The notes under the pieces: model-generated | The model's input: only the letters and a program-made list of their open reading frames with translations | Databases searched by the model: none | Told to the model about the DNA's origin: nothing | Translations under genes and position numbers: made by a program | In this document: in pieces, positions 1 through 15,364 of the stretch | Numbering within the stretch: position 1 is the first letter of the stretch | Layout of the letters: each line of letters starts with the position of its first letter | Assembly (NCBI GenBank): GCA_945913025.1 | Contig: CAMECJ010000002.1 | Coordinates: 1-64,000 of the forward strand | DNA: 64,000 nucleotides | From: an uncultured Elusimicrobia bacterium | GTDB taxonomy: Bacteria; Elusimicrobiota; Elusimicrobia; Elusimicrobiales; Elusimicrobiaceae | Reading direction: 5' to 3'

Positions 1-199
<199 letters not shown>

Positions 200-268
200 A
201 AATGCTGAAGGGAAAATTAATGGACGGATTACTTACGCCCGTATTACTATCCGCAAAAGGAAACAATT

Positions 269-1429
269 ATGAAAACAAATCTCAAAACCTATACCGTTGA
301 AGAAATTTGCAAAGGATTTATCTATAATGAACTGGAAGGCAAAGGGCTGTTCGGGCTGAACGGAAAACTTACCATTCAGCCGGAATACCAACGCAATTAC
401 ATTTACGCCGACGGCAAAAAAGACGTAGCGGTAATAGATTCCCTGCTAAAAGGCTATCCGCTCGGGCTTATTTATTTTAACAAAACACCTGACGGCCAGT
501 TGGAAGTCTTGGACGGGCAACAGCGCATTACCAGCATCGGGCGGTTTGTAACTAACAAATTTGCTATTTTTGACGATAACGCTATCCCCCATTATTTTGA
601 CAGTCTGCCGCAAGACAGACAAGAGAAGATTCTCCATTCTACCCTTTTGGTTTACGAATGCGAAGGAACGGAAACAGAAATTAAAGAATGGTTCAAAACG
701 ATCAATATCGCAGGTGTACCGCTTAACGAGCAGGAATTGTTAAACGCCATTTATTCCGGCCCGTTTGTGACGCTGGCCAAAGAGGAATTTTCCAATTCAC
801 AAAATGCTAACATTGCAAAATGGAGCGCCTATATAAAAGGTTCTGCTAACCGGCAGGATTTTTTGGCTACCGCCCTCAACTGGGTCAGCCGCGGACAACC
901 TGAAAAATATATGAGCGCGCAGCGCAGGGAAAATACCATTGACGAGTTAAAAATGTATTTTAACGCCGTCCTAGACTGGGCCGAAGGGGTATTCCCCAAC
1001 ATAGAACCCGAAATGTGCGGTCTAGAATGGGGCCGTTTATACGAAACGTATCACAAAAACGCATATAACCCACAAGAAATTTCAGCCGAATTAACTGCCT
1101 TAATGCAGGACCCGTATATTTCCAACCGCCGAGGGATTTTTGAATATCTGTTGGGCGGAAAGCACGATACGAAACTGTTGAACATACGGATATTTGACGA
1201 AGCCGTTAAACGCCGTGTATACAAAGCACAAACCGAGCAGGCAGAAAAAAACGGAATTTCCAACTGTCCGCTGTGTGCTGTTGGAAACGACTCCAACAAA
1301 AACCGCATTTGGACGCGTGCGGAAATGGACGCCGATCATGTAACCGCTTGGAGCAAAGGCGGTGCGACAGACGCAAAAAATTGCCAAATGCTCTGTAAAA
1401 CGCATAACCGCGCCAAAGGCAACCGCTAA
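269..1429 (+). CDS. DUF262 domain protein with C-terminal HNH endonuclease
   Basis: Likely DNA endonuclease of the GmrS/GmrD-like DUF262 group, which is linked to modification-dependent restriction and phage defence. The N-terminal DUF262 (ParB-like) half carries PEYQRNY near residue 38 and the nucleotide-binding hallmark DGQQR at 82-86. The C-terminus has a zinc-ribbon/HNH module: CPLC at 333-336, DADH at 354-357, NCQ near 371, and CKTH at 376-379. At 386 aa it is shorter than full GmrSD fusions, which also carry DUF1524. ATG 269 is preceded by AAAGGA. No methyltransferase or other restriction subunit lies beside it, although sequence left of the window is unseen. Family is clear; substrate is inference. 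Confidence 0.8.
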
Positions 1430-1435
1430 ATACAG

Positions 1436-1464
1436 TTGACACCCGCGCCCTCAAATGTTATGAT
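1436..1464 (+). promoter_or_regulatory. Sigma-70-type promoter of the rimP-nusA-infB operon
   Basis: TTGACA at 1436-1441 and TATGAT at 1459-1464 are separated by exactly 17 bp, a near-consensus housekeeping promoter. It lies between the nuclease stop and rimP. The predicted start of transcription, about 1471, leaves a leader of roughly 70 nt before the rimP ATG. Confidence 0.85.
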
Positions 1465-1476
1465 AGATATGTACTC

Positions 1477-1509
1477 GCAAGAGCGGCTTGGCAACAAGCC
1501 GCTCTTTGC
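1477..1509 (+). promoter_or_regulatory. Leader hairpin upstream of rimP
   Basis: A 14-bp stem (GCAAGAGCGGCTTG with its complement, one bulged T) closes on a GCAA loop, a GNRA-type tetraloop. It lies in the 5' leader between promoter and rimP. The downstream sequence is not T-rich, so it is not a standard intrinsic terminator. It could stabilise the mRNA or be a site for autoregulation by NusA or another factor; which one is not shown by the sequence. Confidence 0.6.
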
Positions 1510-1539
1510 TTAAATAAGGCTCTACAGCAAGGAGTAATT

Positions 1540-1998
1540 ATGAGAGACCCCAAAACAATCGAACAAACCGTCGCCAAGGCGTTGGAAGCTTTGGACGTCG
1601 AACTGGTGGACCTAATCATCCAAAACCAAGGCAAAAAGAAACTTTTGCAATTTTTCGTTGATAAAGTCGGCGGCGTAACGCTTGACGACTGCGGAGAACT
1701 GACCGATAAAATAGACTCCGTACTGGAAATGGAAAACTTAATTGACGGCGCATACATTCTGGAAGTATCTTCCCCCGGGGTGCAGCGCGTACTCAAAAAA
1801 CCCGCCCATTTTAAACAATTTCTTACGCAGCGCGTAAAAATCGTGCTGAAAGTACCGCTTGAAGGCCGCGGATTTTTTACCGGCGTCATCGCTTCCGCCG
1901 ACGACGACGGTTTTACGTTGGACGACGGCACCAATCAGTACCGCTTCGCCTACGACAACATCAAAAAAGCAAACTTGGACCCTGTCCTTGAATTTTAA
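1540..1998 (+). CDS. rimP: Ribosome maturation factor RimP
   Basis: RimP helps assemble the 30S subunit in the cytoplasm. The 152-residue length is normal for the family. The N-terminal alpha/beta domain contains a typical EVSSPGVQRVL stretch, and the C-terminal SH3-like barrel follows. ATG 1540 has AAGGAG just upstream. It is first in the rimP-nusA-infB operon, whose order is conserved across bacteria, and nusA follows after 25 bp. Confidence 0.95.
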   Translation: MRDPKTIEQTVAKALEALDVELVDLIIQNQGKKKLLQFFVDKVGGVTLDDCGELTDKIDSVLEMENLIDGAYILEVSSPGVQRVLKKPAHFKQFLTQRVKIVLKVPLEGRGFFTGVIASADDDGFTLDDGTNQYRFAYDNIKKANLDPVLEF

Positions 1999-2023
1999 TT
2001 AACCCCAAAGGAGAACAACAAAA

Positions 2024-3406
2024 ATGGAAGGAACCGCTAAAGATTTAATCTTGGCCTTGGAAGGCCTGGAAAGAGAAAAAAACATCAAACGCGAAGATAT
2101 TTTGAAAACGATTGAGGATGCCCTCGTTTCCGCCCTTCGCAAAAATTTAGGCAAAACCGCCCAAATCAGCGCAAAAATCGACGTGGAAAACGGCTCCATT
2201 AAAGCGTTCCAAACGTTAAACGTCGTGGAACTGGTTACCAATCCGGAAACGGAAATTTCCGTGGAGGACGCCAAAGCCCACCTTAAAAACCCCGCCGTTG
2301 GCGATGTGGTAACCATTACGCTGGAAGTGGAAGATTTCTCCCGCATTGCGGCGCAAATCGCCAAACAGGTGCTTATCCAAAAAGTGCGCGGTATTGAACG
2401 CGATAATTTCTACAAAGAATTTAAACCCCGCGAAGGCGAAGTGATTACCGGCTCCGTGCGCCGCTTTTCCGACCGCGACATCATCGTTGATCTCGGCAAA
2501 GTGGAAGCCATTTTGCCCTATTGCGAACAAATCAAAAAAGAACGCTACGTCAACGGTTCGCGCGTAAAAGCCATTATCGCCAAAGTTTTAAATCAAAACG
2601 ACTTGGCCAACGTCGGAGACGACCCGGTGCTCTCGCGCTACAAATCCGCCGCGTTCAAAATGGATAAAGGACAGCGCGGGCCGTACGTGATTTTGTCCCG
2701 CGCCAACGGCAAATTCTTGGAAGAATTATTTAAAGTGGAAGTGCCGGAAATCAACGAAGGCATTGTGGAAATCAAAAGCGTCCAGCGCGACCCGGGTTTC
2801 CGCGCCAAAGTAATGGTATCCAGCATTGACAGCAAAATTGATCCTATCGGCACCTGCGTGGGTATGCGCGGTATCCGCATCCGCGCGGTAATGAATGAGC
2901 TGTCCGGCGAACGCATTGATTTAATCAATTACTCCGATGATATTTCCACCGTCCTTATGAACGCGCTGGCCCCCGCCAAAGCCGATTTTGTAAAAATCGA
3001 CAGCCTGTCCGAAAAACGCGCCACCGTCATCGTGCCGGACGACCAGCTGGCCATCGCCATCGGCAAAGACTGGCAGAACATTAAACTTGCCTCCAAGCTG
3101 ACGGGCTGGAATCTGGAAGTAAAGAGCGAAAGCCAAAAAGCCCAGGAAGGCAAAGAAGCCAGCGACGCCGTACAGGCCGAACTTGCTTCCGTAGAAGGCA
3201 TCGGCCCGAAAATGGCGGAAGTATTGCAAAAATCTGGCTTTACGAGCGTGGAACAAATTGCGGAACTGGACGTGGAACACCTATCTACCGTACAGGGCAT
3301 CGGCGACAAAACGGCCGCCAAAATTATTGAAGGCGCCAAAAAATACGTAGCGGAACACTCCGCCGCGGCGCAGGAGGAAGTGAATGACGACAAAGAAAAC
3401 AACTAA
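2024..3406 (+). CDS. nusA: Transcription termination/antitermination factor NusA
   Basis: NusA binds RNA polymerase and nascent RNA, modulating pausing, termination and antitermination. The 460-residue product shows the N-terminal RNAP-binding domain (1-125), an S1 domain (about 135-200), KH1 and KH2 domains (about 230-370, with the GMRGIRIRAV and IAIGKDWQNIKLA signatures), and a helix-hairpin-helix tail (about 390-445, VEGIGPKMAEVL and VQGIGDKTAAKI). AAAGGAG precedes ATG 2024. Its 3' end overlaps infB by 23 bp, implying coupled translation. Confidence 0.97.
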   Translation: MEGTAKDLILALEGLEREKNIKREDILKTIEDALVSALRKNLGKTAQISAKIDVENGSIKAFQTLNVVELVTNPETEISVEDAKAHLKNPAVGDVVTITLEVEDFSRIAAQIAKQVLIQKVRGIERDNFYKEFKPREGEVITGSVRRFSDRDIIVDLGKVEAILPYCEQIKKERYVNGSRVKAIIAKVLNQNDLANVGDDPVLSRYKSAAFKMDKGQRGPYVILSRANGKFLEELFKVEVPEINEGIVEIKSVQRDPGFRAKVMVSSIDSKIDPIGTCVGMRGIRIRAVMNELSGERIDLINYSDDISTVLMNALAPAKADFVKIDSLSEKRATVIVPDDQLAIAIGKDWQNIKLASKLTGWNLEVKSESQKAQEGKEASDAVQAELASVEGIGPKMAEVLQKSGFTSVEQIAELDVEHLSTVQGIGDKTAAKIIEGAKKYVAEHSAAAQEEVNDDKENN

Positions 3407-5768
3407 TTCCGAAGAGGAATCCTCCGCCAAGAAAAAAACCGCCGCTAAAAAAACCACGGCTTCCAAAACTGCCGCCAAAAAGCCCGCCGCAAAGAAAACG
3501 ACGACGGCCAAAAAAACAACAACGGCGAAAAAAACCGCTGCAAAAAAAACGACGGCTTCCAAACCGCGCAAAACCTCGGCCAAAGCCAAAGCGGAAGAAG
3601 CGGCTGCGGCAAAACGTGAAAAAACGCAAACCGCTCAAGTATCTGCGCCGCAAGCGGAAACAAAAGCTGAGGTAAAACCCGCGGCGCACCCCGTCGAGCC
3701 GCAAGCGGCCACGCCCAAAGCGGAAAAACCGGCGGAAATAAAACCGGCTCCCGCCGCCGCGCACGTGCAGCCTAAAGCGGAAGCCAAACCCGTTCAAACG
3801 GTTGCGCCGCAAGCGCGCCCGCAGGAACCCGTCCGTCCGCAGGCTGCGCCCGTACAACAGCCTAAACCGCAGCAGCAGCAAGCGGCCCCCGCCCAACAGC
3901 CTAAACTGCAGCAGCCGGCGCACCATAACCGGCCGCAAGGCGGCAATTTAGACCGCCACGGCCACGCCAAACCCGTACAGCCGCAAGCCCCCAAAAAAGA
4001 CGAAAAAGTCATCAAAATCGTCGGCCAGCCGACCGTCAAAGAACTGGCCGAAAAAATGAACATCAAAACCAACGATTTCATCAAAAAATTAATGATGATG
4101 GGCATTTTCGCCACGATTAACCAACGCTTGGAAAAAGACATGCTTGAGCTTATCGTGGACGAATGCGGTTTTAAAGCGGAACTGGCGGAAGAAGATTTAA
4201 CCAAAGAAGCCGCCGCGCTGATGGAAACGCAGGACGATCCGGTCTCTTTAAAACCCCGCAGTCCGGTCATTACGATTATGGGCCACGTGGACCACGGTAA
4301 GACCAGCCTGTTGGACGCCATTCGGAAGTCCAACGTCGTGGCGGGCGAGGCCGGAGCCATTACCCAACACATCGGCGCCTACCGCGTAAAAACGCCGCGC
4401 GGAACGCTGACGTTCTTGGATACGCCCGGCCACGAAGCCTTTACCGCTATGCGCGCCCGCGGTGCACAGGCGACGGATATTGTGGTGTTAGTAGTTTCGG
4501 CTACGGACGGTATTATGCCGCAGACGATTGAATCTATGGAACACGCCAAAGCCGCCGGAACTCCGATTATCGTGGCGGTCAACAAAATTGACCTCCCGGG
4601 CGCCAATGTGGACCGCGTGAAGCAGGACCTCGCCGCCCGCGGACTCGTGCCCGAGGAATGGCAGGGAACCACGATTTTTGTGGAAATTTCCGCCAAGAAA
4701 CATATCAACATTGATAAACTGCTGGAAATGATTGCCCTGCAGGCCGAAATGATGGAACTCAAAGCCAATCCGGACAGACCGGGCGTAGGCGTTATTTTGG
4801 AAAGTAAGCGCGACAGCAAACGCGGCGTGGTGGCCACGGTCCTCGTGCAGAAAGGCACGATGAAAGTGGGCGACCCGTTTATTGTGGGCACAAACTACGG
4901 ACGTATCCGCGCACTGATTGACGAAAATTCCCAGCGTTACCAGAAAATCGGCCCTAGCGTGCCGGCTGAAATTTTGGGTATCAACGGCGAGCCGCCGCAA
5001 GTGGGCGATACGCTCTACATCATGCCTAGCGAAAAAGAAGCCCGCTACGCCGCCGAAAAACGCAAACTGGCGCAAAAAGAGGATTCGCAGGCGCACCGCA
5101 AACAAATGTCCTTGATGAGCCTGGCTAAAAATGACGAAAACGGCAACTCCGTCAAGAAATTGAGCCTTATTTTAAAGGCGGACGTGCAAGGTTCCATTGA
5201 GGCCATTAAAGACGCGCTCTTGCGTATTCCGTCAGATGAGGTGGAAGTGGATATTATTCTGTCCGCCCCCGGGAACATCAACGAGTCCGACATTCTTTTG
5301 GCCAAAGCCAGCAACGCCGTCGTGATTGGATTCCATGTAGACACGGAAAACAAAGCGCAGGCGGAAGCGGAACGCGAATGTATCGAAATCCGCCGCTACA
5401 CGATTATCTTCGAACTCTTGGAAGATATCAAAGCCGCTATGGAAGGCTTACTGGAACCCGACGTAGTGGAAACAGTAGTAGGCACCGCCACCATCAAAAA
5501 AGTGATGAAATTAAGCTCCGGCCTGATTTCCGGCTCTTTGGTGGAAAGCGGCACGATTACGCGCGGCTTTGAAGTACGCGTCAAGCGCAACGGCGAAGAA
5601 GTGGGGCACGGCAAGATTGGCGGCCTGAAACGCTTCAAAGATGACGTAAAAGAAGTGGAGAAAGGATATGAATGCGGTATCTTGATTGAGGGTTTCAAAG
5701 GCGTTGCCGAAGGCGACGTAATTGAATGCTTCCGCAAAGATAACGTAACCAGACGTATTAAGATGTAA
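3384..5768 (+). CDS. infB: Translation initiation factor IF-2
   Basis: IF-2 is the GTPase that places initiator tRNA on the 30S subunit and promotes subunit joining. The first 190 residues or so are low complexity: a Lys/Ala/Thr-rich, histone H1-like stretch (about 5-80), then Ala/Pro/Gln-rich sequence. An IF2_N domain follows near 210-260. The G domain has GHVDHGKT at 300-307, DTPGHE near 347 and NKID near 401, followed by domains II to IV. AGGAGG precedes ATG 3384, which lies inside the nusA end. The C-terminus ends in NVTRRIKM, and this tail is repeated downstream with terminators (5769-6605). Confidence 0.97.
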   Translation: MTTKKTTNSEEESSAKKKTAAKKTTASKTAAKKPAAKKTTTAKKTTTAKKTAAKKTTASKPRKTSAKAKAEEAAAAKREKTQTAQVSAPQAETKAEVKPAAHPVEPQAATPKAEKPAEIKPAPAAAHVQPKAEAKPVQTVAPQARPQEPVRPQAAPVQQPKPQQQQAAPAQQPKLQQPAHHNRPQGGNLDRHGHAKPVQPQAPKKDEKVIKIVGQPTVKELAEKMNIKTNDFIKKLMMMGIFATINQRLEKDMLELIVDECGFKAELAEEDLTKEAAALMETQDDPVSLKPRSPVITIMGHVDHGKTSLLDAIRKSNVVAGEAGAITQHIGAYRVKTPRGTLTFLDTPGHEAFTAMRARGAQATDIVVLVVSATDGIMPQTIESMEHAKAAGTPIIVAVNKIDLPGANVDRVKQDLAARGLVPEEWQGTTIFVEISAKKHINIDKLLEMIALQAEMMELKANPDRPGVGVILESKRDSKRGVVATVLVQKGTMKVGDPFIVGTNYGRIRALIDENSQRYQKIGPSVPAEILGINGEPPQVGDTLYIMPSEKEARYAAEKRKLAQKEDSQAHRKQMSLMSLAKNDENGNSVKKLSLILKADVQGSIEAIKDALLRIPSDEVEVDIILSAPGNINESDILLAKASNAVVIGFHVDTENKAQAEAERECIEIRRYTIIFELLEDIKAAMEGLLEPDVVETVVGTATIKKVMKLSSGLISGSLVESGTITRGFEVRVKRNGEEVGHGKIGGLKRFKDDVKEVEKGYECGILIEGFKGVAEGDVIECFRKDNVTRRIKM

Positions 5769-5783
5769 GTTTAAGTATTAGCT

Positions 5784-5816
5784 AAAAACCCCGAGGCGTT
5801 AGCTGAGGGGTTTTCT
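5784..5816 (+). terminator. Intrinsic terminator of infB (type A, copy 1)
   Basis: AAAACCCC pairs with GGGGTTTT around an inner segment, followed by a short T-rich run, 16 bp after the infB stop. This is the first of seven terminators in the array. Confidence 0.85.
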
Positions 5817-5929
5817 TATGCCCAAACGATGAAGGGCATTCAAGAAGCGTTACCGAAGGCGACGTGATTGAATGCTTCCGCAAAGATAACGTAACCAGAC
5901 GTATTAAGATGTAAGTTGAAGTATTAGCT

Positions 5930-5963
5930 GAAAACCCCGAGGCGTTAGCTGAGGGGTTTTCTT
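5930..5963 (+). terminator. Array terminator, type A copy 2
   Basis: Same AAAACCCC/GGGGTTTT hairpin as copy 1, located 16 bp after the repeated stop codon at 5912-5914. Confidence 0.8.
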
Positions 5964-6099
5964 ATGCCCAAACGATGAAGGGCATTCAAGAGGCGTTGCC
6001 GAAGGCGACGTGATTGAATGCTTCAAAAAAGAGAACGTCACCAGACGTATTAAGATGTAATCTTAATCGGCTGGCGGACCGCGAAAAGTTGTTAAGCAT

Positions 6100-6130
6100 A
6101 AAGCCCCGCGCGAGAATTGCGGGGCTTTTT
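6100..6130 (+). terminator. Array terminator, type B copy 1
   Basis: AAGCCCCGC pairs with GCGGGGCTT and is followed by T5. The flanking GCATAA and TTATGC extend the stem, making it strong. Its sequence differs from the type A terminator. Confidence 0.85.
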
Positions 6131-6210
6131 ATGCACTCGCGAGGCGTAACGCGCAGAATTAAAATGTAAGTTTTAATTCAAGCGGCGGACCGCGAAAAGT
6201 TGTTAAGCAT

Positions 6211-6241
6211 AAAGCCCCGCGCGATAATCGCGGGGCTTTTT
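6211..6241 (+). terminator. Array terminator, type B copy 2
   Basis: Same hairpin as type B copy 1, offset 111 bp, with a two-base loop difference. Confidence 0.85.
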
Positions 6242-6321
6242 ATGCACTCGCGGGGCGTAACGCGCAGAATTAAAATGTAAGTTTTAATTCAAGCGACGGA
6301 CCGCGACAAGCTGTAAAGCAT

Positions 6322-6352
6322 AAAGCCCCGCGCGATAATTGCGGGGCTTTTT
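6322..6352 (+). terminator. Array terminator, type B copy 3
   Basis: Same type B hairpin and T run, offset a further 111 bp. Confidence 0.85.
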
Positions 6353-6432
6353 ATGCACTCGCGGGGCGTAACGCGCAGAATTAAAATGTAAGTTTTAATT
6401 CAAGCGGCGGACCGCGACAAGCTGTAAAGCAT

Positions 6433-6463
6433 AAAGCCCCGCGCGAGAATTGCGGGGCTTTTT
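6433..6463 (+). terminator. Array terminator, type B copy 4
   Basis: Last type B hairpin; the unit that follows switches back to type A codons. Confidence 0.85.
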
Positions 6464-6518
6464 ATGCACTCGCGGGACGTAACCAGACGTATTAAGATGT
6501 AAGTTTAGCATTTACGCT

Positions 6519-6552
6519 GAAAACCCCGAGGCGTTGGCTGAGGGGTTTTCTT
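6519..6552 (+). terminator. Array terminator, type A copy 3
   Basis: AAAACCCC/GGGGTTTT hairpin after the hybrid tail ending at 6502. After it the truncated infB-like sequence stops abruptly at about 6605. Confidence 0.8.
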
Positions 6553-6623
6553 ATGCCCAAACGATGAAGGGCATTCAAGAGGCGTTGCCGAAGGCGACGT
6601 GATTGGTACATTTTCCAAAAAGG

Positions 6624-6702
6624 CGTCATCCCGTAAAGTTTTTATACGGGATCTCGTTGTTAAAAAACAACAGATTCCCAATTACGACCTTCGGGAATGA
6701 CG
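6624..6702. repeat. Dispersed palindromic repeat, intergenic copy
   Basis: Begins GTCATCCCG and ends CGGGAATGACGC, with inner palindromes (CCCGTAAAG..TACGGG and GATTCCC..GGGAATGA). Related copies lie at 12652, 18481, 32741 and 32891, and a variant lies inside two pilin genes. From 6703 to 6861 there is only diverged repeat-like sequence and the 3' flank of the pilin gene. Confidence 0.75.
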
Positions 6703-6861
6703 CGGGTGAGGCGAACTTTCGGAATGATGAGATTTTTAACGACAGATTTCCACACACGGTGCACCACTAACACCCCAGTAAGAACAATGTACGCCTCCAT
6801 AACTGCCGCAACCCAACCCGTTTTCCTTACACGCAAACGCGGATTTCATACTAATTTATAA

Positions 6862-7341
6862 TTATTGATAATCGTAGCTAGCAATATAGCCGTCATCGGA
6901 ACTTGGTCCGCTCTTTCCTGTTTCAGCCCTGCATATACTATGCGCCAACGCATTATCATCATAAGCAAGGCAAGCAAAAAACCTTTGCATAAAATTGGCA
7001 TAATAAGTCATTACAATATCTCCGTACCACACTACACACCCGCCGCAGCTATGATCTGGGCACGCTATGTAACAATAGCCGTTCGGATAGTTAATGCGAT
7101 TGGGCGTATCCGTAGATGAACCACGCGGCAGTTGTATATCCAATTCTTCAAAATCTCCACTGAATTTTCCGTTTGCCATAAAATAAACGGTTTGTGCGTC
7201 CACAATGGCTTTTACCAAAGGCTTTGCTGCGGCAAAACGGCTTTTTAGCACCGCTTTTTGATACTGCGGCAATGCCACCGCCGCCAATATACCAATAATT
7301 AAAACAACTACCAGCAACTCAATTAACGTAAATCCTTTCAT
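6862..7341 (-). CDS. Solitary type IV prepilin
   Basis: A pilin-type subunit inserted in the inner membrane and processed by prepilin peptidase. The leader is MKG, followed by the class III/N-methylation motif [18 protein letters not shown] and VALPQY, then a variable C-terminal domain with several cysteines (CYIACPDHSCGGC region). Start 7341 was chosen over an upstream in-frame codon because it gives the short MKG leader and has AAAGGAG just upstream. The gene stands alone, is transcribed leftward opposite to its neighbours, and has its own promoter with an 11-base T tract (7421-7443). It lies between the infB array and hydG. Confidence 0.9.
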   Translation of the reverse strand: MKGFTLIELLVVVLIIGILAAVALPQYQKAVLKSRFAAAKPLVKAIVDAQTVYFMANGKFSGDFEELDIQLPRGSSTDTPNRINYPNGYCYIACPDHSCGGCVVWYGDIVMTYYANFMQRFFACLAYDDNALAHSICRAETGKSGPSSDDGYIASYDYQ

Positions 7342-7420
7342 AAACAACTCCTTTATAAAATGCAGCGTTTTACACCGCTCCAATGCCTACAACGATACAA
7401 CCCGCTGAAATTAGCATTAT

Positions 7421-7443
7421 CACTATAGTATCAAAAAAAAAAA
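7421..7443 (-). promoter_or_regulatory. Homopolymer-containing pilin promoter
   Basis: On the minus strand an 11-base T tract abuts TTGATACTATAG, an extended -10-like element (TGA then TACTAT), about 80 nt upstream of the prepilin ATG at 7341. The same layout is found before other pilins at 18386 and 26595 and before the broken gene at 32511. Confidence 0.6.
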
Positions 7444-7507
7444 CGATACAAGCCTTACGAAAAACTGCCATTTGTTTCTCATGCTCCCTGCCAACCCCGC
7501 CCAAAAG

Positions 7508-7516
7508 TGCTATTAT
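7508..7516 (+). promoter_or_regulatory. Extended -10 promoter of hydG, leaderless layout
   Basis: TGC followed by TATTAT (7511-7516) lies exactly 6 nt before the hydG ATG, so transcription would begin at or next to the start codon. No Shine-Dalgarno sequence is visible before the ATG. Confidence 0.6.
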
Positions 7517-7522
7517 ATAAGT

Positions 7523-8905
7523 ATGATTATTGATGACGAAAAACTACAGCGGGCTTTGGAAAATGCCAAGTCCCACACCGACGGTGAAGTAACCGCCATT
7601 TTAAATAAAGCCAAGGAACTAAAAGGAATCTCTTTGGATGAGGCGGCCGTACTGCTTAACATCACGGACCCCAAACTGTTGCAAGCTCTTTTTGATGCGG
7701 CCAAATACGTTAAAGAAGCCATCTACGGCAACCGTATCGTATTATTCGCCCCGTTATATATTTCCAATATTTGCACGAACGAATGCGTTTATTGCGCGTT
7801 CCGCCGCTCCAACACCAAACTCAAACGCCACGCCAGCACGCAAGACGAAATCCGCCAAGAGGTTACCGCGCTGTTGCAGCAGGGCCACAAACGGATTTTA
7901 ATGGTGGCGGGCGAAGCGTACCCTGGCGGCGGCCTGCAATATGTGTACGACAGCATCAAAACCATTTACGATACGCGCTGGAACGGCCAAAATATCCGCC
8001 GCGTCAACGTCAATATCGCACCGCTTACGGAGCCGGAATTTGAAGAACTGAAAAAATGTAACATCGGCACCTATCAGCTGTTCCAGGAAACCTACCACAA
8101 AAAAACGTATGAACAGCTGCACCTCGCTGGCGCGAAAAAAGACTATCAGTTCCGCTTAGACGCAATGGACCGCGCCCTCCGGGCCGGCATTAACGACGTA
8201 GGCATCGGCCCGCTGTTGGGGCTTTACGACCACAAGTACGAAATTTTGGCTACGCTCGAACACTCCCGTTATTTGGACGAAACCTACGGCGTAGGGCCGC
8301 ATACAATATCCATTCCGCGCATTGAGCCGGCCGAAGGCTCCGAATTCAGCCAACACCCTAATGACATATTGACGGACGACGAATTTAAAAAGTGCGTAGC
8401 CGTTTTGCGCCTTGCGGTACCGTATACGGGGATTATTTTAAGCACGCGCGAAACACCCGCTATGCGAAACGCGTGTTTGGAACTGGGTGTATCGCAAATT
8501 TCGGCTGCTTCACGCGTCAACCCTGGCGGCTATTCGTATGACAAAGAAAACGGCAGCCAATTCACGCTGACGGACGACCGATCGCTTGCCGAAGTCATCG
8601 GCGCGGTGGTGGACGCCAAGCATATGCCATCTTTTTGCACCGGCTGCTACCGCTTGGGACGCGTCGGCAAAGACTTTATGGATATGGCCAAACCCGGGCT
8701 TATCAAAACGCATTGTCTGCCCAATGCGATGTTTACGTTCGCCGAATATCTGGAGGATTTCGCGCCCGCGGATTTAAAAGCCAAGGGATATGCACTTATA
8801 GAAAGTACGGCCAAAGAAGCGTTTGCCGAAGGTACGCCGATACGCAAAATGATTGACGAGAACCTAAAAAACATCAAATCCGGCAAGCGGGATTTGTACT
8901 TTTAA
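7523..8905 (+). CDS. hydG: [FeFe]-hydrogenase H-cluster maturase HydG
   Basis: HydG is a radical SAM enzyme that cleaves tyrosine to supply CO and cyanide to the hydrogenase H-cluster. The 460-residue product has the radical SAM motif CTNECVYC (C84, C88, C91) and the HydG-specific C-terminal CX2CX22C (C372, C375, C398), which separates it from ThiH. ATG 7523 was chosen because it fits the family N-terminus and sits 6 nt after a -10 box; the upstream in-frame ATG would put the promoter inside the gene. HydE, HydF and the hydrogenase are not in the window. The gene sits alone between two oppositely oriented pilins. Confidence 0.95.
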   Translation: MIIDDEKLQRALENAKSHTDGEVTAILNKAKELKGISLDEAAVLLNITDPKLLQALFDAAKYVKEAIYGNRIVLFAPLYISNICTNECVYCAFRRSNTKLKRHASTQDEIRQEVTALLQQGHKRILMVAGEAYPGGGLQYVYDSIKTIYDTRWNGQNIRRVNVNIAPLTEPEFEELKKCNIGTYQLFQETYHKKTYEQLHLAGAKKDYQFRLDAMDRALRAGINDVGIGPLLGLYDHKYEILATLEHSRYLDETYGVGPHTISIPRIEPAEGSEFSQHPNDILTDDEFKKCVAVLRLAVPYTGIILSTRETPAMRNACLELGVSQISAASRVNPGGYSYDKENGSQFTLTDDRSLAEVIGAVVDAKHMPSFCTGCYRLGRVGKDFMDMAKPGLIKTHCLPNAMFTFAEYLEDFAPADLKAKGYALIESTAKEAFAEGTPIRKMIDENLKNIKSGKRDLYF

Positions 8906-8919
8906 CAAACCGTTTATAA

Positions 8920-8953
8920 AAATCTCCGGAGCTAAAACTCCGGAGATTTTTAT
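8920..8953 (+). terminator. Terminator after hydG
   Basis: AATCTCCGGA pairs with TCCGGAGATT, followed by TTTT, 15 bp after the hydG stop. Confidence 0.85.
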
Positions 8954-8960
8954 TGTATAG

Positions 8961-8993
8961 AAAACCCCAGTCTCCAAACGGAAACCGGGGTTC
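8961..8993 (-). terminator. Terminator for the leftward pilin gene
   Basis: On the minus strand AACCCCGGTTTCC pairs with GGAGACTGGGGTT, followed by TTC, immediately after the pilin stop at 9008. Confidence 0.7.
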
Positions 8994-9007
8994 TGCGTCA
9001 AAAAAAC

Positions 9008-9523
9008 TTATTTAATCAAGCCCTTTGTATCTCCATTGGCAATAGATTTGCAAATGGCAGTTACACCATTGGTAGTGGGCGTCGAAGCCGTAGAAGAAGC
9101 ATCCGCCGCAGTCGTATTGCACCAACGGGTTATGGTTCCGTCATTGGCAATATACATATTGAGATGATAAGCATTATCACCCGTCGTAGCAGTACCATTG
9201 TTGGCACGTTGCGCCTTTACCACAACAGCCGTATCACCTTTAAGCACTGTGAAAACAAAGTTCTTAGTCGTTGTAGTCGTAGTCGTCGCGGAACCCACCC
9301 CGGGAGGCTGCAGGTCTAGTAAGCTCAAATCAGTGGTAAAACTGCCCGTGCTCATTTGGTACACTTGTTCAGCAGTCGCCAAATTGCCCAAAAGCGTAAG
9401 GGCTTCGGTTGCGCGCGACTTTTCCACCGCTTTGGTATACTGCGGCAGTGCCACAGATGACAAAATACCAATAATCAGTACGACGACCAATAATTCGATC
9501 AAGGTAAAACCTTTTTTCATCAT
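9008..9523 (-). CDS. Solitary type IV prepilin with a threonine run
   Basis: Prepilin with leader MMKKG (or MKKG) and the motif [24 protein letters not shown], then a variable domain. Around residue 85 there is a run of seven threonines, a possible O-glycosylation target. The C-terminal region has a conserved-looking cysteine pair (RWC.. and AICKSI) shared with the other solitary pilins. AAAAGGAG precedes the start; which of the two adjacent ATGs is used is undecided. The gene is monocistronic, transcribed leftward between hydG and rbfA, with its own terminator. Confidence 0.88.
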   Translation of the reverse strand: MMKKGFTLIELLVVVLIIGILSSVALPQYTKAVEKSRATEALTLLGNLATAEQVYQMSTGSFTTDLSLLDLQPPGVGSATTTTTTTKNFVFTVLKGDTAVVVKAQRANNGTATTGDNAYHLNMYIANDGTITRWCNTTAADASSTASTPTTNGVTAICKSIANGDTKGLIK

Positions 9524-9568
9524 AGAATCTCCTTTTAGATTAAGTGCAGAAATGAACTTCTGCTTTTA

Positions 9569-9595
9569 GTAGTATAGCTATTTCAAAAAAAACAA
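9569..9595 (-). promoter_or_regulatory. Probable pilin promoter with a shorter T tract
   Basis: On the minus strand eight Ts are followed by GAAATAGCTATACTACT. TATACT is a plausible -10, about 45 nt upstream of the pilin start. It resembles the other pilin promoters, but the tract is shorter and the GATAC element is not conserved. Confidence 0.45.
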
Positions 9596-9620
9596 GTGCA
9601 CTCCTCTGTAAAAGCCAAAA

Positions 9621-9629
9621 TGGTATAAT
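9621..9629 (+). promoter_or_regulatory. Extended -10 promoter of rbfA, leaderless layout
   Basis: TGG then TATAAT (9624-9629) ends exactly 6 nt before the rbfA ATG. No ribosome binding site is visible. This gives the rbfA-nrnA-truB-ribF group its own promoter, separate from rimP-nusA-infB. Confidence 0.65.
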
Positions 9630-9635
9630 AAAAAT

Positions 9636-9995
9636 ATGATAGACAGAATTAAACGGTTGGAAACCCTTTTTTTAGAAGAAATCAATACGCTCATTACCAA
9701 AATGGCCGCCAACGGCGATTTTGGCGGATTTGTGACGATTACGGCAGTGCGCCTAACTAAAGATTTGGCCAATGCCAAAGTGTTTTTCTCGGTATTTGGC
9801 AGCCCCGAGGACCGCAAAAAAACGCAGGAAGCCTTGTCGCTTTTGCGCAAAGAAATCGGTGCGCAGCTGCGCGGACGGTTACACTTAAAACGTATTCCGT
9901 CGTTTAGTTTCGAATACGACGATACGCCCGAAAAAGCTTCCCGCGTGGAGGCCATTTTCCAAGTGATTGAAAAGGAACACGAAAATGGAAAATAG
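9636..9995 (+). CDS. rbfA: Ribosome-binding factor A
   Basis: RbfA is a small KH-fold protein that binds the 30S subunit and aids 16S rRNA 5'-end maturation. It is 119 residues, normal for the family, with the typical core VRLTKDLANAKVFFSVFG and the C-terminal RIPSFSFEYDDTPEKASRVE. It overlaps the next gene by 11 bp. In most bacteria it follows infB directly; here 3.9 kb of array, pilins and hydG intervene. Confidence 0.93.
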   Translation: MIDRIKRLETLFLEEINTLITKMAANGDFGGFVTITAVRLTKDLANAKVFFSVFGSPEDRKKTQEALSLLRKEIGAQLRGRLHLKRIPSFSFEYDDTPEKASRVEAIFQVIEKEHENGK

Positions 9996-10980
9996 AGAAG
10001 AAAGCCTGCGCGCGGTGTGGAAGGCTGTACGCGCCGGAAACAAGTTTTTTATCGCCGGACATTTAAATCCGGACGGAGATTCTTTGGGCTGTACGCTGAC
10101 GATGACTTCCCTATTGGAACGCTTGGGCAAAACGGTGTACGCCTATGCTGCACCCGCTATTGGGGGCGACTTAAAATTCCTGCCCGGACTTGAAAAAATT
10201 CACGTGGGCGTACTACCCGCAAATCCGGATTTTGATACTGTCATTCTCTTGGAATGTTCCGACCGCCAGCGCGGCGGCGATTTGGAGAGCGTTTTAAAAC
10301 CCGCAAAAACCTTAGTAAATATCGACCACCATCTGGTAAGCGACGCATACGGCCACGTCAACCATATTGATTCCGCCGCTTCCTCTACTGCCGAAATCAT
10401 TTTCCAGCTGTTTGAAGCTTCCGCGGAAGACAATTTGCTGCCTACGCCGGATGAGGCCACCTGCCTGTATACCGGCCTTGTGACCGATACGGGCCGCTTC
10501 GTACATTCCAACACCACGGCCGAAGCGCTGCGTGTGGGATCGGCGTTGGTGGCACTTGGGGCGGACGTCAATAAAATCAACCAAGTTATTTACTTCACCA
10601 AATCTTTTATTGAGCTGAAGTTATTGGGCCGCGCGCTTGAAAAAATGGAAATGCGCTTTGACAATAAATACAGCCAAATCATTTTGACCCGGCGGGATTT
10701 TGAAACCTTCGGCGCCACGCCCGCCCAAACGCAAGGGATTGTCAGCCAGCCGACAATGATCCCGGGGGTGGAAGTATCCGCCCTTATCAAAGAAGAGCCG
10801 GATAAAGTCTCCGTCAACCTGCGCTCCCGAGGAGCCGCGGACGTAAGCCGTATCGCCCAGCTGTTTGGCGGCGGAGGGCACGCGCGGGCAGCCGGCTTTA
10901 AAGTAACAGACAAAACCGTAAGCGACGTGGCCGACGCCTTGGCCGAAGTGGTGTACAATGTCGTTAAAGACTTACACTGA
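9985..10980 (+). CDS. nrnA: DHH-family nanoRNase / pAp phosphatase NrnA
   Basis: Degrades very short oligoribonucleotides and removes the 3' phosphate of pAp. The 331-residue protein has HLNPDGDSLG near residue 22, the DHH motif at 114-116 within NIDHHLVSDAYG, and the DHHA1 signature FGGGGHARAAG near residue 296. ATG 9985 is preferred over an upstream in-frame non-ATG codon because AAAGGAA lies just before it and it gives the family N-terminus. It overlaps rbfA by 11 bp and truB by 23 bp, so the operon is tightly coupled. Confidence 0.92.
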   Translation: MENREESLRAVWKAVRAGNKFFIAGHLNPDGDSLGCTLTMTSLLERLGKTVYAYAAPAIGGDLKFLPGLEKIHVGVLPANPDFDTVILLECSDRQRGGDLESVLKPAKTLVNIDHHLVSDAYGHVNHIDSAASSTAEIIFQLFEASAEDNLLPTPDEATCLYTGLVTDTGRFVHSNTTAEALRVGSALVALGADVNKINQVIYFTKSFIELKLLGRALEKMEMRFDNKYSQIILTRRDFETFGATPAQTQGIVSQPTMIPGVEVSALIKEEPDKVSVNLRSRGAADVSRIAQLFGGGGHARAAGFKVTDKTVSDVADALAEVVYNVVKDLH

Positions 10981-11671
10981 ACCCGCCAAAAGCGGTATTC
11001 TGCTGATTGATAAACCGAAGGATTTTTCTTCGCACGACATTATCGCTATCTGCCGACGGGAACTGAAAACCAAAAAAATCGGCCACAGCGGAACGCTCGA
11101 CCCGATGGCGACGGGGTTGCTCATTCTGCTTATTGGGCGGGAAGCCACCAAAAAACAAGACCAATTTTTAAAGCTGGAAAAAGTTTACTCCGCCGTCTTA
11201 AAACTGGGCGGGGAAACCGACTCCTGGGACGCCTACGGCGAGATTGTACACTCAAAGCCCGTCCCCCCGCTGGCCGCGGAAGATTTGCGCCGCGCCGTAC
11301 AAAAATTATCGGGCCGTATCGTACAGCCTATTCCTTTTTTCAGCGCAAAACGCATCAACGGAAACCGCATGTACGAATTGGCCCGAAAAGGCGCGGAAAT
11401 GGAACGCAAATATAACGAAGTGGACGTACAATGGCTGCGTGCGGAATTTACCGCACCTGACGAAATTGCGTTTACCGTGCGCTGTTCGTGCGGAACTTAC
11501 GTACGCTCGCTGGGTTATCTGCTTGCGCAGGAGCTGAAAACGGTCGGGCATTTAACGTCTTTGAGGCGTGAAAAAATCGGCGGGTTTTGCGTAAATAACG
11601 CGTTTGACGGAAACCTGCTGAAAGGAACCGGATCAGACTTGTATACGCACGTACAGACGGAAGCGTTATGA
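10958..11671 (+). CDS. truB: tRNA pseudouridine-55 synthase TruB
   Basis: Makes pseudouridine at position 55 of tRNA T arms. GHSGTLDPMATG contains the catalytic aspartate (about D48). KVYSAVLKLGGETDSWDAYG and the SCGTYVRSLGYLLAQEL region are typical. At 237 residues it is a short form with little or no C-terminal PUA domain. The start lies inside nrnA (23-bp overlap) and the stop overlaps the ribF start by 4 bp (ATGA). Confidence 0.94.
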   Translation: MSLKTYTEPAKSGILLIDKPKDFSSHDIIAICRRELKTKKIGHSGTLDPMATGLLILLIGREATKKQDQFLKLEKVYSAVLKLGGETDSWDAYGEIVHSKPVPPLAAEDLRRAVQKLSGRIVQPIPFFSAKRINGNRMYELARKGAEMERKYNEVDVQWLRAEFTAPDEIAFTVRCSCGTYVRSLGYLLAQELKTVGHLTSLRREKIGGFCVNNAFDGNLLKGTGSDLYTHVQTEAL

Positions 11672-12573
11672 AGAAAACCAAACATTTTATTACAGTAGGC
11701 ACGTTTGACGGACTACACGGCGGACACCGCGCGCTTTTCGGCAAGTTGGAAATGATGTCCGCCCTGCACCGTATGAAACCGCTTGCCTTATACTTTCCGT
11801 TCCCCCCCAAAACACTCCTGGGCGAACACCCCGAAATGACGGTGCTGACGCTTCCCGCCGAAAAAAAATTTCTGTTTAAAAAATCCGCCATTACCGCGCG
11901 CCCGCTTGATTTTGCCGCGTGCCGCAACTTGTCTGCGGAACAATTTTTTGACGTGTTACGCCACAAGTACAATATGGGCGGACTATTGGCGGGACCGGAT
12001 TTTGCTTTCGGCAAAGACCGCCAAGGCAGCCTTGATTTTTTACGCGCCCAATGCGACAGATACGGCCTGCCGTTTAGCGTAGCGGAGTTCTCCCTGATAC
12101 AGGGAGAAAAAATTTCATCTTCCCTCATCCGTAAAATGCTTGCCCAAGGGAATATCCCGCTTGCCAACGCACTGTTAGGCCGCCCATACGAACTGACGGG
12201 GCGCGTGATTAAAGGCCACCAGCTGGGCCGCAAACTGGGATTTCCCACCGCCAATTTGGATACGGGAATTTATAAAATTCTGCCGCTCGGGGTATTTGCC
12301 GTCAAAGTGCGCGTAGGCCGCAAAATTTACGACGGTTTTTGTAATATTGGGTTCCGCCCTACGGTTAACCCCATTCACGCTAAACTGCCGCTTGTGGAAG
12401 TAAATATCTTTGATTTCAAGCAAAGCATTTACGGCAGGAACATTACCCTTTGGTTTGTGCAAAAACTACGAGATGAAAAAAAGTTTAATGGGTTAGATAA
12501 TTTGGTGGCGCAGCTGAAATCTGACCGCGAAGATGCCCGCGCCGCTCTAAAAGATTTTACCTTTCCGCTGTAA
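11668..12573 (+). CDS. ribF: Bifunctional riboflavin kinase / FAD synthetase
   Basis: Converts riboflavin to FMN and FAD. The N-terminal nucleotidyltransferase domain (1-155) shows TVGTFDGLHGGHRALF and ISSSLIRKML. The C-terminal flavokinase domain (about 170-300) shows GRVIKGHQLGRKLGFPTANL and GFCNIGFRPTV. Length 301 is usual. It is last in rbfA-nrnA-truB-ribF; rpsO, which often follows, is absent. No T-rich terminator follows, but a palindromic repeat begins about 80 bp downstream. Confidence 0.95.
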   Translation: MKKTKHFITVGTFDGLHGGHRALFGKLEMMSALHRMKPLALYFPFPPKTLLGEHPEMTVLTLPAEKKFLFKKSAITARPLDFAACRNLSAEQFFDVLRHKYNMGGLLAGPDFAFGKDRQGSLDFLRAQCDRYGLPFSVAEFSLIQGEKISSSLIRKMLAQGNIPLANALLGRPYELTGRVIKGHQLGRKLGFPTANLDTGIYKILPLGVFAVKVRVGRKIYDGFCNIGFRPTVNPIHAKLPLVEVNIFDFKQSIYGRNITLWFVQKLRDEKKFNGLDNLVAQLKSDREDARAALKDFTFPL

Positions 12574-12651
12574 CCGATTGCTCAGTATTACTCCGTTTGT
12601 GAAAGATACCGATTGTCTATTCTTTATTTTGGCCGCTTAAACCAAAAGTTA

Positions 12652-12740
12652 CGTCATCCCGTAAGGTCGTAGTACGGGATCTCGTTGTTTCGTAACGACA
12701 GCTTCCCGCCCCCTGCGGGGCGCCCCCTTCGGGAATGGAC
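12652..12740. repeat. Dispersed palindromic repeat, intergenic copy
   Basis: Starts GTCATCCCG and ends TTCGGGAATGGAC, with CCCGTAAGG..TACGGG and GCCCCCTGCGGGGC inner palindromes. Same family as the copies at 6624, 18481, 32741 and 32891. Confidence 0.7.
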
Positions 12741-12766
12741 GAAGGCGCCGGCGTCCAAAATAAGCA

Positions 12767-12800
12767 ACAAGGGATAAGAAAACACTTTCTTATCCCTTGT
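12767..12800. terminator. Perfect 15-bp hairpin after the 12828 gene
   Basis: ACAAGGGATAAGAAA and its exact complement flank a 4-base loop. It ends 28 bp from the stop of the leftward gene at 12828. There is no T run on either side, so it is a poor classic terminator. A sister hairpin with the same ACAAGGG arm and the same GTGCGnAAATC flank lies at 33060-33088, also just beyond a leftward gene. Confidence 0.5.
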
Positions 12801-12827
12801 GCGTAAATCGTAAGGTAACATCAGCCG

Positions 12828-13097
12828 TCAATCTTCTTCCGTATAGTCACGCACGAAGAAAATAATATACGTAAACCACGTTGCGCCGAAGAAAATCAAA
12901 AAGCAGTACGAAAACCACCATATCTTGTTCAGAGGATTGTAATCAAGCAACATAGACTCCATAAACAACATTCCCAGCACTACCGCCAGATATCCCCATA
13001 CAAACAGTGCGGCCAGTTTTAAAATGGCATCAAACGTACCGACAATAAAGCCTTTTTCGGCATACGGTCTTTTAATAAAAGCGATTAATTTCTGCAT
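12828..13097 (-). CDS. Small membrane protein of unknown function
   Basis: An 89-residue protein with two predicted membrane segments (about residues 25-47 and 62-82), a basic N-terminus (MQKLIAFIKRPYAEKG) and an acidic tail (DYTEED). No family is recognised. A GGGAG lies some 15 bases upstream of the start, rather far. It is monocistronic; the next gene to the right runs the same way but 37 bp upstream. Confidence 0.7.
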   Translation of the reverse strand: MQKLIAFIKRPYAEKGFIVGTFDAILKLAALFVWGYLAVVLGMLFMESMLLDYNPLNKIWWFSYCFLIFFGATWFTYIIFFVRDYTEED

Positions 13098-13134
13098 ACA
13101 GTTATTTTAATCTCCCTAGGACTCTTTTGTCAAG

Positions 13135-13917
13135 CTACGGCTGCATAGCGGGGTCCGTTGCATTATAGCCGAAAGACGGATCCTCCGCCATTAAATTATC
13201 CTCTAAAAATCCGTCCGGAGCCGCACCGCCCGCGTCTGCAGCAGGCTGCGCCGACGGATTGTTGTTTAAGGCCTGCACGTCCTGCATCTCCGCTTGCGGC
13301 GTACCGGTTTCATACAGGGCAGTATCAGCATATATGTCTTGCGCGGCCGGAGCAGATTCTTCTTGCTGCGCAGCCGTTTCCGGCGACTTTTCTTTCATAA
13401 AGCGTTTCGGTTTATTTTTTCGGCTGGCCAGTTGGGCTTTGGACATAACGGGTTCTTTTTTCTCAGCCACGGCAGCATTTGCGGAAGTATCTTTGGAGAC
13501 ACGGGCGGCTTGCACTTGTTGACGGGGGGCTTTGTTTGCTTGTTCCCAATCCGCTTTTGCAGCTTCTTCCTGCGCAATGCGTTCCTGCTCGGAAAGCATA
13601 TCGTTCTCAAACTCTGGAAACTGATTCGTTCCGACAAAATTCTGTTCGACAGAAAAGTCTTTCCCTTTTATATATTTTTGTTTATAGACAGAAGATTTTT
13701 CCTCTTTGTTCTGCGGCACGGCGGAAGAAATATCGTAATACACTAACTCCGGCCCTGCGGCGGGAGCGGGTTTTTCTTCTGGCATAAGACAATAGTCCAC
13801 GCGTTCAGTTGTCGTAGCGTCTTGGTGTTTATCCACGCGCGTTTCGCACGTGGACGCGCAAAAAGCCGGCAGCCCTGCCGACAAAAATACCATAAAAACT
13901 GCAAAAATTTTTTTCAT
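13135..13917 (-). CDS. Secreted Ala/Glu/Gln-rich protein, unknown function
   Basis: A 260-residue product with a signal peptide (about residues 1-20, cleaved after AFCA or nearby). Two cysteines follow early (STCETRVD, DYCLMPEE); the rest is low complexity and charged with long Ala/Gln/Pro-rich stretches, probably disordered or coiled. No domain is recognised. GGAGAG precedes the ATG, and TATGAT/TATAGT boxes lie close upstream. Codon periodicity and the signal peptide support a real gene. Confidence 0.7.
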   Translation of the reverse strand: MKKIFAVFMVFLSAGLPAFCASTCETRVDKHQDATTTERVDYCLMPEEKPAPAAGPELVYYDISSAVPQNKEEKSSVYKQKYIKGKDFSVEQNFVGTNQFPEFENDMLSEQERIAQEEAAKADWEQANKAPRQQVQAARVSKDTSANAAVAEKKEPVMSKAQLASRKNKPKRFMKEKSPETAAQQEESAPAAQDIYADTALYETGTPQAEMQDVQALNNNPSAQPAADAGGAAPDGFLEDNLMAEDPSFGYNATDPAMQP

Positions 13918-13978
13918 AAACTCTCCGTACTATAATCATAGTACATTTTACGTCTTTTTGCACGCTAAAAACACAAAC

Positions 13979-14329
13979 TTATCCCAAGCATTTCATTCCA
14001 GCGATAAGCGCGGCGGCCCCAAACAACACGGAGCAGGCCAAGTATATCGCGGCCTCCCCCGCCCGCCCCTGACCGGCAAGACGCGCAAAATCCAGCAAAT
14101 AAGTGGAAAACGTGGTAAAACCGCCCAAAAGGCCGCTCATTACGAATAATTTTAATTCCGGCGAAATTCCCGTACTCCGTTGGAAAAAAGCGTATGCCGC
14201 TCCGATAAAAAACGCACCCGCCACATTTACGGCAAACGTACCCCAATGCGCGGGAACCGCAACACATACCAGCCAACGCAGCACGCTGCCCGCGCCTCCG
14301 CCAATAAATACACCTAAAAAAGCAAACAT
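13979..14329 (-). CDS. crcB: CrcB/Fluc fluoride exporter
   Basis: Small four-helix membrane protein that works as a dual-topology dimer exporting fluoride. The 116-residue product shows GGGAGSVLRW near the start, the N-V-A-G motif (FAVNVAGAFFIG) and GLLGGFTTFSTY, all family signatures. ATG 14329 is preferred over an upstream in-frame start because GGAGG lies 5 bases before it. It lies downstream of a tRNA and its terminator, so it may depend on read-through. No fluoride riboswitch is evident. Confidence 0.93.
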   Translation of the reverse strand: MFAFLGVFIGGGAGSVLRWLVCVAVPAHWGTFAVNVAGAFFIGAAYAFFQRSTGISPELKLFVMSGLLGGFTTFSTYLLDFARLAGQGRAGEAAIYLACSVLFGAAALIAGMKCLG

Positions 14330-14330
14330 A

Positions 14331-14372
14331 AAAACCTCCAAACAAAAAGCCCTCCGTTTGGAGGGCATCAAA
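14331..14372 (-). promoter_or_regulatory. Terminator and alternative hairpin between tRNA and crcB
   Basis: On the minus strand GCCCTCC pairs with GGAGGGC (loop AAAC) followed by TTTTTG, an intrinsic terminator for the tRNA. The first arm plus loop, CCTCCAAAC (14356-14364), is also a perfect 9-base complement of GTTTGGAGG (14335-14343), which contains the crcB ribosome binding site. Read-through transcripts could therefore form either the terminator or an RBS-masking helix. Confidence 0.65.
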
Positions 14373-14375
14373 AAA

Positions 14376-14449
14376 TGTCACCGGGTGGGATCGAACCACC
14401 GACCTAGCGCTTATGAAACGCTCGCTCTAACCAGCTGAGCTACGGTGAC
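14376..14449 (-). tRNA. tRNA with CAT anticodon (elongator Met, or Ile2 if lysidine-modified)
   Basis: The 74-nt gene folds as a full cloverleaf: acceptor GTCACCG/CGGTGAC with A discriminator, D stem GCTC/GAGC, anticodon stem AGCGT/GCGCT with loop TTCATAA, and T arm GGTGG TTCGATC CCACC. CCA is not encoded. The paired G1-C72 excludes initiator tRNA. Anticodon CAT alone does not separate elongator methionine from isoleucine-2. Confidence 0.93.
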
Positions 14450-14466
14450 GTAAATCTTATATATTT

Positions 14467-14496
14467 ATTATAACAAAACAACACAACAAAACGCAA
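14467..14496 (-). promoter_or_regulatory. Promoter of the CAT tRNA
   Basis: On the minus strand TTGCGT (14491-14496) and TATAAT (14467-14472) are spaced by 18 bp, and the -10 lies about 17 nt before the tRNA 5' end. Confidence 0.65.
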
Positions 14497-14524
14497 GATT
14501 TTTTATTTTTTCCGTTGGAAAACG

Positions 14525-15127: not shown

Positions 15128-15205
15128 GTCCAGCCTCCCGAAGAAAAGGTCCTAAAGATTATACAATAAAAGTCCTATTTTTTTCTAGGCATAAATTGCG
15201 CGGCA

Positions 15206-15224: not shown

Positions 15225-15329
15225 TTTTTCGCCCGCCGGAAACGCTAGACTGTTTATATAAGAATAATTTTCATTTTATCCCATACCGCTGTAGTCCCAA
15301 ACCCTGCTGCAGCGGTTCCCTTTTTTATA

Positions 15330-15358: not shown

Positions 15359-15364
15359 AGAAAT

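Follow-up and report, generated by a model that had tools for sequence, protein, structure and literature searches.

What could cause a gene to be followed by several further copies of its own end, each written so as to yield the same closing peptide? The question is raised by infB in an uncultured bacterium of the Elusimicrobiaceae, of which we analysed a stretch of 64,000 nucleotides (the window, contig CAMECJ010000002.1). The anatomy of the array behind this gene recurs across species, is restricted to very few genes and includes spare ends that are under coding constraint. We give an even chance to the reading that the array belongs to a class of short (approximately 100–210 bp), gene-free 3'-end cassettes of the Elusimicrobiaceae, which are reshuffled by recombination at a few conserved gene ends.

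Anatomy of the array behind infB

The genes at this locus lie in the order rimP-like ORF (named by its position), nusA and infB, the last of which (3384–5768, plus strand, by ORF call) encodes IF-2 (TIGR00487, 730 bits), has an A-type 3' end and closes its reading frame at 5768 with VTRRIKM*. Six extra infB ends follow 3' of this stop, ending at 5914, 6060, 6169, 6280, 6391 and 6502, and then a truncated seventh; the total of terminators is seven. Two types of unit build the array. The type A unit (146 bp) joins about 66–75 nt of infB to a terminator that is symmetric (AAAACCCC/GGGGTTTT); in the type B unit (111 bp), about 24 nt of infB are spelled in different codons, and the terminator, likewise symmetric, is GCATAAAGCCCC/GGGGCTTTTTATGC. 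Correspondingly, TRF reports periods of 146 bp (2.5 copies, 5694–6060) and 111 bp (3.9 copies, 6073–6506). Read 5' to 3', the terminators form the series A, A, B, B, B, B, A; the tails beyond that of the gene itself form the series A, A, B, B, B, A, truncated. TRRIKM* is encoded by all six extra tails.

Terminators and tails all lie on the plus strand. Terminator 1 (5784–5816), of A type and symmetric (AAAACCCC...GGGGTTTT), folds at −17.5 kcal/mol (z −4.2) and is followed by tail 1 (5840–5914), a long A-type tail of at least 66 nt, VTEGDVIECFRKDNVTRRIKM*, which carries an A>T substitution (VTEGD). Terminator 2 (5930–5962, A type; −20.9 kcal/mol) precedes tail 2 (5986–6060), likewise of A type and conservatively changed (FKKEN vs FRKDN), after which a B-type terminator begins, making this the A/B junction. 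The stop codon of tail 2 is spanned by an inverted repeat (6049–6067, ATTAAGA-TGTAA-TCTTAAT), the right arm of which fits the A tail though the unit is of B type. There follow terminator 3 (6096–6134; B type, symmetric GCATAAAGCCCCGCG...GCGGGGCTTTTTATGC; −21.8 kcal/mol, z −5.0), the short B-type tail 3 (6146–6169), in which VTRRIKM* is spelled in synonymous codons, and its stop-codon inverted repeat, or antitail, GAATTAAAA-TGTAAG-TTTTAATTC (6156–6179). The same B-type succession is found in terminator 4 (6207–6245; −23.1 kcal/mol), tail 4 (6257–6280) and its stop-codon inverted repeat (6267–6290), and in terminator 5 (6318–6356; −21.8 kcal/mol), tail 5 (6368–6391) and its repeat (6378–6401). 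Terminator 6 (6429–6467, B type), identical in sequence to terminator 3, leads into tail 6 (6479–6502), which is of A type, and the last unit is thus a hybrid. Terminator 7 (6519–6551, A type; −21.0 kcal/mol) and the truncated start of the seventh tail (6575–6605) complete the array. The six distinct terminator hairpin sequences fold at −17.5 to −23.1 kcal/mol, with z from −4.2 to −5.2.

Coordinates, TRF and folding agree with the first-pass annotation, which had described repeated infB ends, each with a terminator, in two synonymous types and with a hybrid last copy; it was also right that simple slippage of the resident infB end cannot account for the array. The A and B units have no further occurrence elsewhere in this genome. 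In an Rfam search of window positions 1–20000, no family matched the infB array, and RtT was absent at the gathering threshold. Between infB and rbfA lie two type IV pilin-like genes (6862–7383 and 9008–9523, minus strand) and a radical SAM/BATS gene (7517–8905); in some other species, rbfA comes directly after the infB terminator. A (CAGA)13 microsatellite occupies window positions 1–54, at the start of the contig.

Arrays across the genus and the gene ends that carry them

The C-termini of infB and the DNA downstream were drawn from about 85 genomes of the family, mostly metagenome assemblies. Arrays behind infB occur in 21 of the 66 same-genus genomes, a lower bound because some contigs stop at infB, and this recurrence counts for the cassette reading. 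They are of the long form in G014, G024, G040, G042, G044, G046, G051, G057, G062 and G065, of the short form in G001, G007, G013, G049, G052, G054, G059, G061 and G063, and of both forms together in the present genome and G031. At least 10 gains or losses of the array are needed on the infB tree, on which it is still more clustered than shuffled labels would be; the infB array is a trait of the genus or lineage.

A search for infB genes that end in the type B sequence, as suggested in the first-pass annotation, finds it as infB's own end in many sister species (e.g., G004, G008 and G054), and the A and B types co-occur in four related species (among them G001, G031 and G054). The B tail of the present genome is 0.958 identical (23/24) to the infB end of the same-genus G048, as against 0.75 to its own infB; for most spare tails, the nearest relative is the infB of the same genome. 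Since type B natively ends infB in sister species and is found alongside type A, the B units need not be external, and the import of a foreign infB end that had been proposed is unneeded. In the clade of G000, G031 and G054, moreover, gene and array have swapped types: infB of G054 ends in B and is followed by an A copy, and the reverse holds in G000 and G031. Together with the native status of both types, this swap makes the hybrid last unit fit recombination between tails, and the earlier view that unequal exchange produced hybrids stands.

The own-genome scan, in which the last 30 nt of each ORF were sought downstream, covered 1.25 of 1.76 Mb and 1068 ORFs, and decoys never exceeded 22/30. 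A score of 30/30 was reached by two of the 1068 ORFs, infB and pgk, which counts for specificity; a third 30/30 match was a spurious ORF lying across a tRNA-Ala array. A scan of 400 kb of G014 returned infB alone among 353 ORFs. A random duplication process striking many genes is unsupported by these scans. Tandem repeats that each hold the 3' end of the upstream gene were found at infB, pgk and the genes for tRNA-Tyr, -Thr, -Val and -Ala, which bears out the idea that gene 3' ends are specifically targeted.

At pgk, the 3' end and terminator are duplicated in the present genome as 1.9 copies of 121 bp (L165:11387–11620; C1:111387–111620), and pgk arrays occur in at least seven other genomes. 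The pgk units, too, fall into two synonymous types that differ in their terminators and follow each other in turn (X1-Y2-X1-Y2 in G040). Immediately 3' of the pgk array of the present genome lies a Y1 (IS200-like) transposase gene (C1:111706–112137), which is rare in the genus. Other intergenic tandem repeats of this genome (C2:65825–66466, C2:73165–73627 and C2:198090–198562) have periods of 101, 229 and 195 bp; their units, with 37, 24 and 46 BLAST matches in the scanned part of the genome, belong to dispersed repeat families. In G025, a CRISPR-like array of about 41 units with a 66-bp period lies a few kilobases downstream of infB (L090, 6473–9212 of the oriented stretch).

The tRNA genes for Tyr, Thr, Val and Ala in the present genome are followed by tandem units in which the tRNA 3' end is repeated together with a terminator and a body; at least four of its tRNA genes thus carry arrays, and single units stand behind others. 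The structured units of about 200 bp lie at L190:5181–5685 (tRNA-Tyr), L192:15593–16057 (tRNA-Thr) and L203:1262–1789 (tRNA-Val). The body family of these three is present in 79 of 90 family genomes. In public genomes, 96 stretches match its 20-base core, of which almost all lie in Elusimicrobiota (mostly gut and rumen) and four in Patescibacteria; most have a tRNA directly upstream, and in IMG/VR the core has zero matches. An alignment of 23 tRNA units yields three hairpins, with compensatory changes at 19 of 35 pairs. The tRNA-Ala(cgc) array (C1:219484–219930) repeats the tRNA 3' end and terminator 3.4 times and has a body unlike that of the other tRNA units. The tRNA-Tyr and tRNA-Thr arrays of this genome gave no Rfam match, and no RtT (RF00391) up to E=5. 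In L258, L262, L266 and L278, tRNA-type units are split by inserts of about 200–250 bp whose ends are inverted (GGGTTGGCAAG/CTTGCCAACCC); these may be MITE-like or represent an extended arm.

Coding constraint and inverted copies of the tails

Measured against infB of the same genome, the long infB copies show 51 synonymous changes to 10 nonsynonymous ones and the short copies 14 to 3; for the pgk copies (13 copies, detected by nucleotide similarity) the counts are 59 and 1. Without constraint, 74–80% of changes would be nonsynonymous; the copies are mutually related rather than independent, and binomial values are therefore merely indicative. The protein sequence is thus preserved in the gene ends that these units bear, some copies showing 7–9 synonymous differences and zero nonsynonymous ones. 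That tails are regenerated in working form, as had been proposed in the first-pass annotation, agrees with differences that are almost exclusively synonymous. In place, the spare tails lack a reading frame of their own and are not translatable. The constraint must therefore be exerted while a copy forms the end of the gene, be it earlier in the same lineage or in the lineage from which the copy came. Counted against the cassette reading is the finding that the infB copies of G044 and G051 bear identical frame-breaking changes, which means that spare tails can persist without coding. Taken together, the substitutions suggest that the spare endings are interchangeable gene-end cassettes, not junk.

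The stop-codon inverted repeat within the short infB units, and the wider class of units at pgk and tRNA genes, had escaped the first-pass annotation. Over 92 infB ends from 63 genomes, the pairing of the post-stop sequence with the last codons averages 14.3, against 11.7 after permutation, and none of 5000 permutations was as high. The arms co-vary even within one genome, as in G061, which has both GAAGAATTAAA/TTTAATTCTTC and GAGCAGAATTAAA/TTTAATTCTGCTC. In the tRNA units, the longest exact inverted match to the 3' end of the host tRNA averages 8.7 nt, as against 5.1 nt for other tRNAs (30 units), and it reaches 11–14 nt in many units; of the 14 sampled tRNAs of G014 that lack the element, none had such a match. 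By eye, an inverted copy is discernible just 3' of the pgk stop (TCGGGCAAGATTTTC versus GAAAAGAGTTGCCCG). Target-matched inverted copies are thus strong for the tRNA units and the short infB units, and at pgk are described by eye. Two observations count against the cassette reading here: the inverted repeat, strong in short infB units, is weak or absent at this genome's own A-type end, and the spacing of tail and antitail varies among the infB, pgk and tRNA units. Such differences in spacing speak against one fixed core for a recombinase. The three kinds of unit do not necessarily share a mechanism and may have separate origins.

Origin of the units and comparison with known systems

In the reading that we favour, each unit bears the working last codons of its host gene (or the 3' end of a tRNA), usually with its own terminator and often with an antitail, and units pile up head to tail at a few conserved ends, namely those of infB, pgk and several tRNA genes. 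Homologous recombination between tandem tails would change copy number, create A/B hybrids and switch between A and B; by such addition, deletion and exchange of units, the tail that ends the gene would be reassigned, and tails that break the protein would be purged by selection. Initial placement at the gene ends might occur through site-specific recombination or an insertion process, and we infer such a site-specific or structure-guided step in preference to an old, homogenised duplication, the main rival. Two results count against the cassette reading: no matched empty and filled site was seen among the genomes compared, and, among the matches listed, none of the arrays behind infB has a recombinase gene linked to it. 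The integrase-like events at the infB end that were suggested in the first-pass annotation are upheld in part, with targeting and tail regeneration in their favour; against them, a PF00589 search of 66 genomes placed no integrase near infB among the matches listed, no far tail copies and no large insert between tails occur within the up to 10 kb examined, and no match to phage, plasmid or viral sequences was obtained. A large element split by two infB tails is ruled out over the same distance, as there are no far tail copies, and an origin from a plasmid, phage or viral contig is rejected for want of matches in such sequences. A Y1 transposase is rejected as the agent, being present in only 11 of 66 genomes and absent from most that bear arrays (e.g., G007, G013, G014 and G063), and loss of Rho as the reason for so many terminators is rejected because Rho was found in 51 of 51 high-quality family genomes.

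The main rival involves neither a mobile nor a site-specific event: the infB end would have been duplicated in tandem long ago, and the copies retained and homogenised by ordinary RecA-type unequal crossover and by gene conversion with infB itself, the extra terminators being mildly useful; in one version the inverted copies would stem from palindrome correction by template switching. We regard this as possible though not probable. Spare tails are mostly closest to the infB of their own genome, the breakpoint of the long units is alike across clades, direct repeats of 100–150 bp recombine readily, and the derived changes common to all copies in G044 and G051 make the array older than the split of these two; yet duplication by itself leaves the restriction to infB, pgk and tRNA ends unexplained and accounts neither for the presence of two unit types at infB as well as at pgk nor for target-matched inverted copies, and copies with only synonymous differences, 7–9 of them, are not products of recent conversion. 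It seems unlikely that diverged gene ends of other species arrived by natural transformation and were added beside the resident end. The closeness of the B tail to another species' infB, and the type IV pilins adjoining infB, one of which has a sub-threshold ComP match, would suit such an import; however, each type is native and the two are found together in four related species, the idea offers no mechanism for adding instead of replacing, and the tRNA units are left unexplained.

Less likely again is that each unit is a functional RNA element, an rtT-like 3' UTR hairpin with terminator whose tandem copies raise the dose. Such a role would agree with the two conserved hairpins of each short infB unit, with the strong structure and covariation of the tRNA units and with the annotation of E. 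coli rttR as a small RNA. On the other hand, strong terminators upstream should leave the spare units largely untranscribed, RNA structure does not account for the coding constraint on the tails, and tail sequence and spacing differ widely between species. That the array is an artefact of assembly is barely credible: several drafts (G001, G013 and G052) do break at the array, as is usual for repeats, but related, non-identical arrays stand in independent assemblies of sister species, including G007, G014, G044 and G061 with few contigs, and substitutions distinguish the unit copies. A broader version of the cassette reading must stay tentative, and we rather doubt it: a new small cassette system, in which structure-defined units would enter the 3' ends of infB, pgk and many tRNA genes, bring a replacement end and a target-matched inverted copy and be moved in trans by a putative recombinase, the tRNA type being found in Elusimicrobiota and Patescibacteria.

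A search of the literature, largely outside subscription papers, found no description of such arrays, nor of protein genes that bear them with two synonymous types of end. Integrative elements that sit at the 3' ends of genes, such as e14 and phage 21 at icd and islands at tRNA genes, carry a synonymous replacement end that restores the protein. The gene ends borne by our units may be likened to these in that they keep the protein; integrative elements, however, are kilobases long and encode an integrase, whereas the present units are 100–210 bp long, geneless and tandem, with no integrase listed near infB. The protein-preserving spare ends, lying beyond both stop codon and terminators, imply that DNA outside the frame has repeatedly been drawn into it. 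If the cassette reading is true, essential genes of this lineage have exchangeable 3' ends.

Integron gene cassettes and attC arrays offer another possible analogy, in small tandem cassettes whose boundaries fall within one arm of a hairpin that is imperfect and varies in its middle, and whose structure is kept more than the sequence; unlike integron cassettes, our units have a gene end rather than attI as their target, and no conserved GTTRRRY core was seen by eye in the few units inspected. IS200/IS605 (Y1) elements and REP/RAYT palindromes have hairpins with a short guide that pairs to the flank. The hairpins with a short pairing segment in our units may be comparable, but tail duplication is not part of the Y1 mechanism and, as noted above, the transposase is confined to few genomes. 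The tRNA units with their target-matched inverted copy could point to guide-like or structure-guided insertion in gut Elusimicrobiota and Patescibacteria.

There is also a close likeness to the 178-bp repeats of tyrT/tyrV in E. coli (RtT RNA, RF00391), in which tandem units directly after the gene each repeat its exact 3' end. There are three such repeats, each with 19 bp of the tRNA-Tyr end, and each also holds 10 nt of this end in inverted form, GGGGAAGGAT, starting at +60, +238 and +416 (K-12 1285800–1288300, L348); as a positive control for RF00391, the E. coli locus gave four RtT matches. In contrast to tyrT, which is a tRNA gene with one unit type and rttR annotated as a small RNA, infB and pgk are protein genes with two unit types, and the sequence is unrelated to that of the E. 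coli repeats. The arrays are tyrT-like in anatomy and are not members of the RtT RNA family. If the cassette reading is true, the long-standing puzzle of the tyrT repeats in E. coli turns into a single instance of a wider design, that of a gene end, its inverted copy and tandem units, which is open to comparative study.
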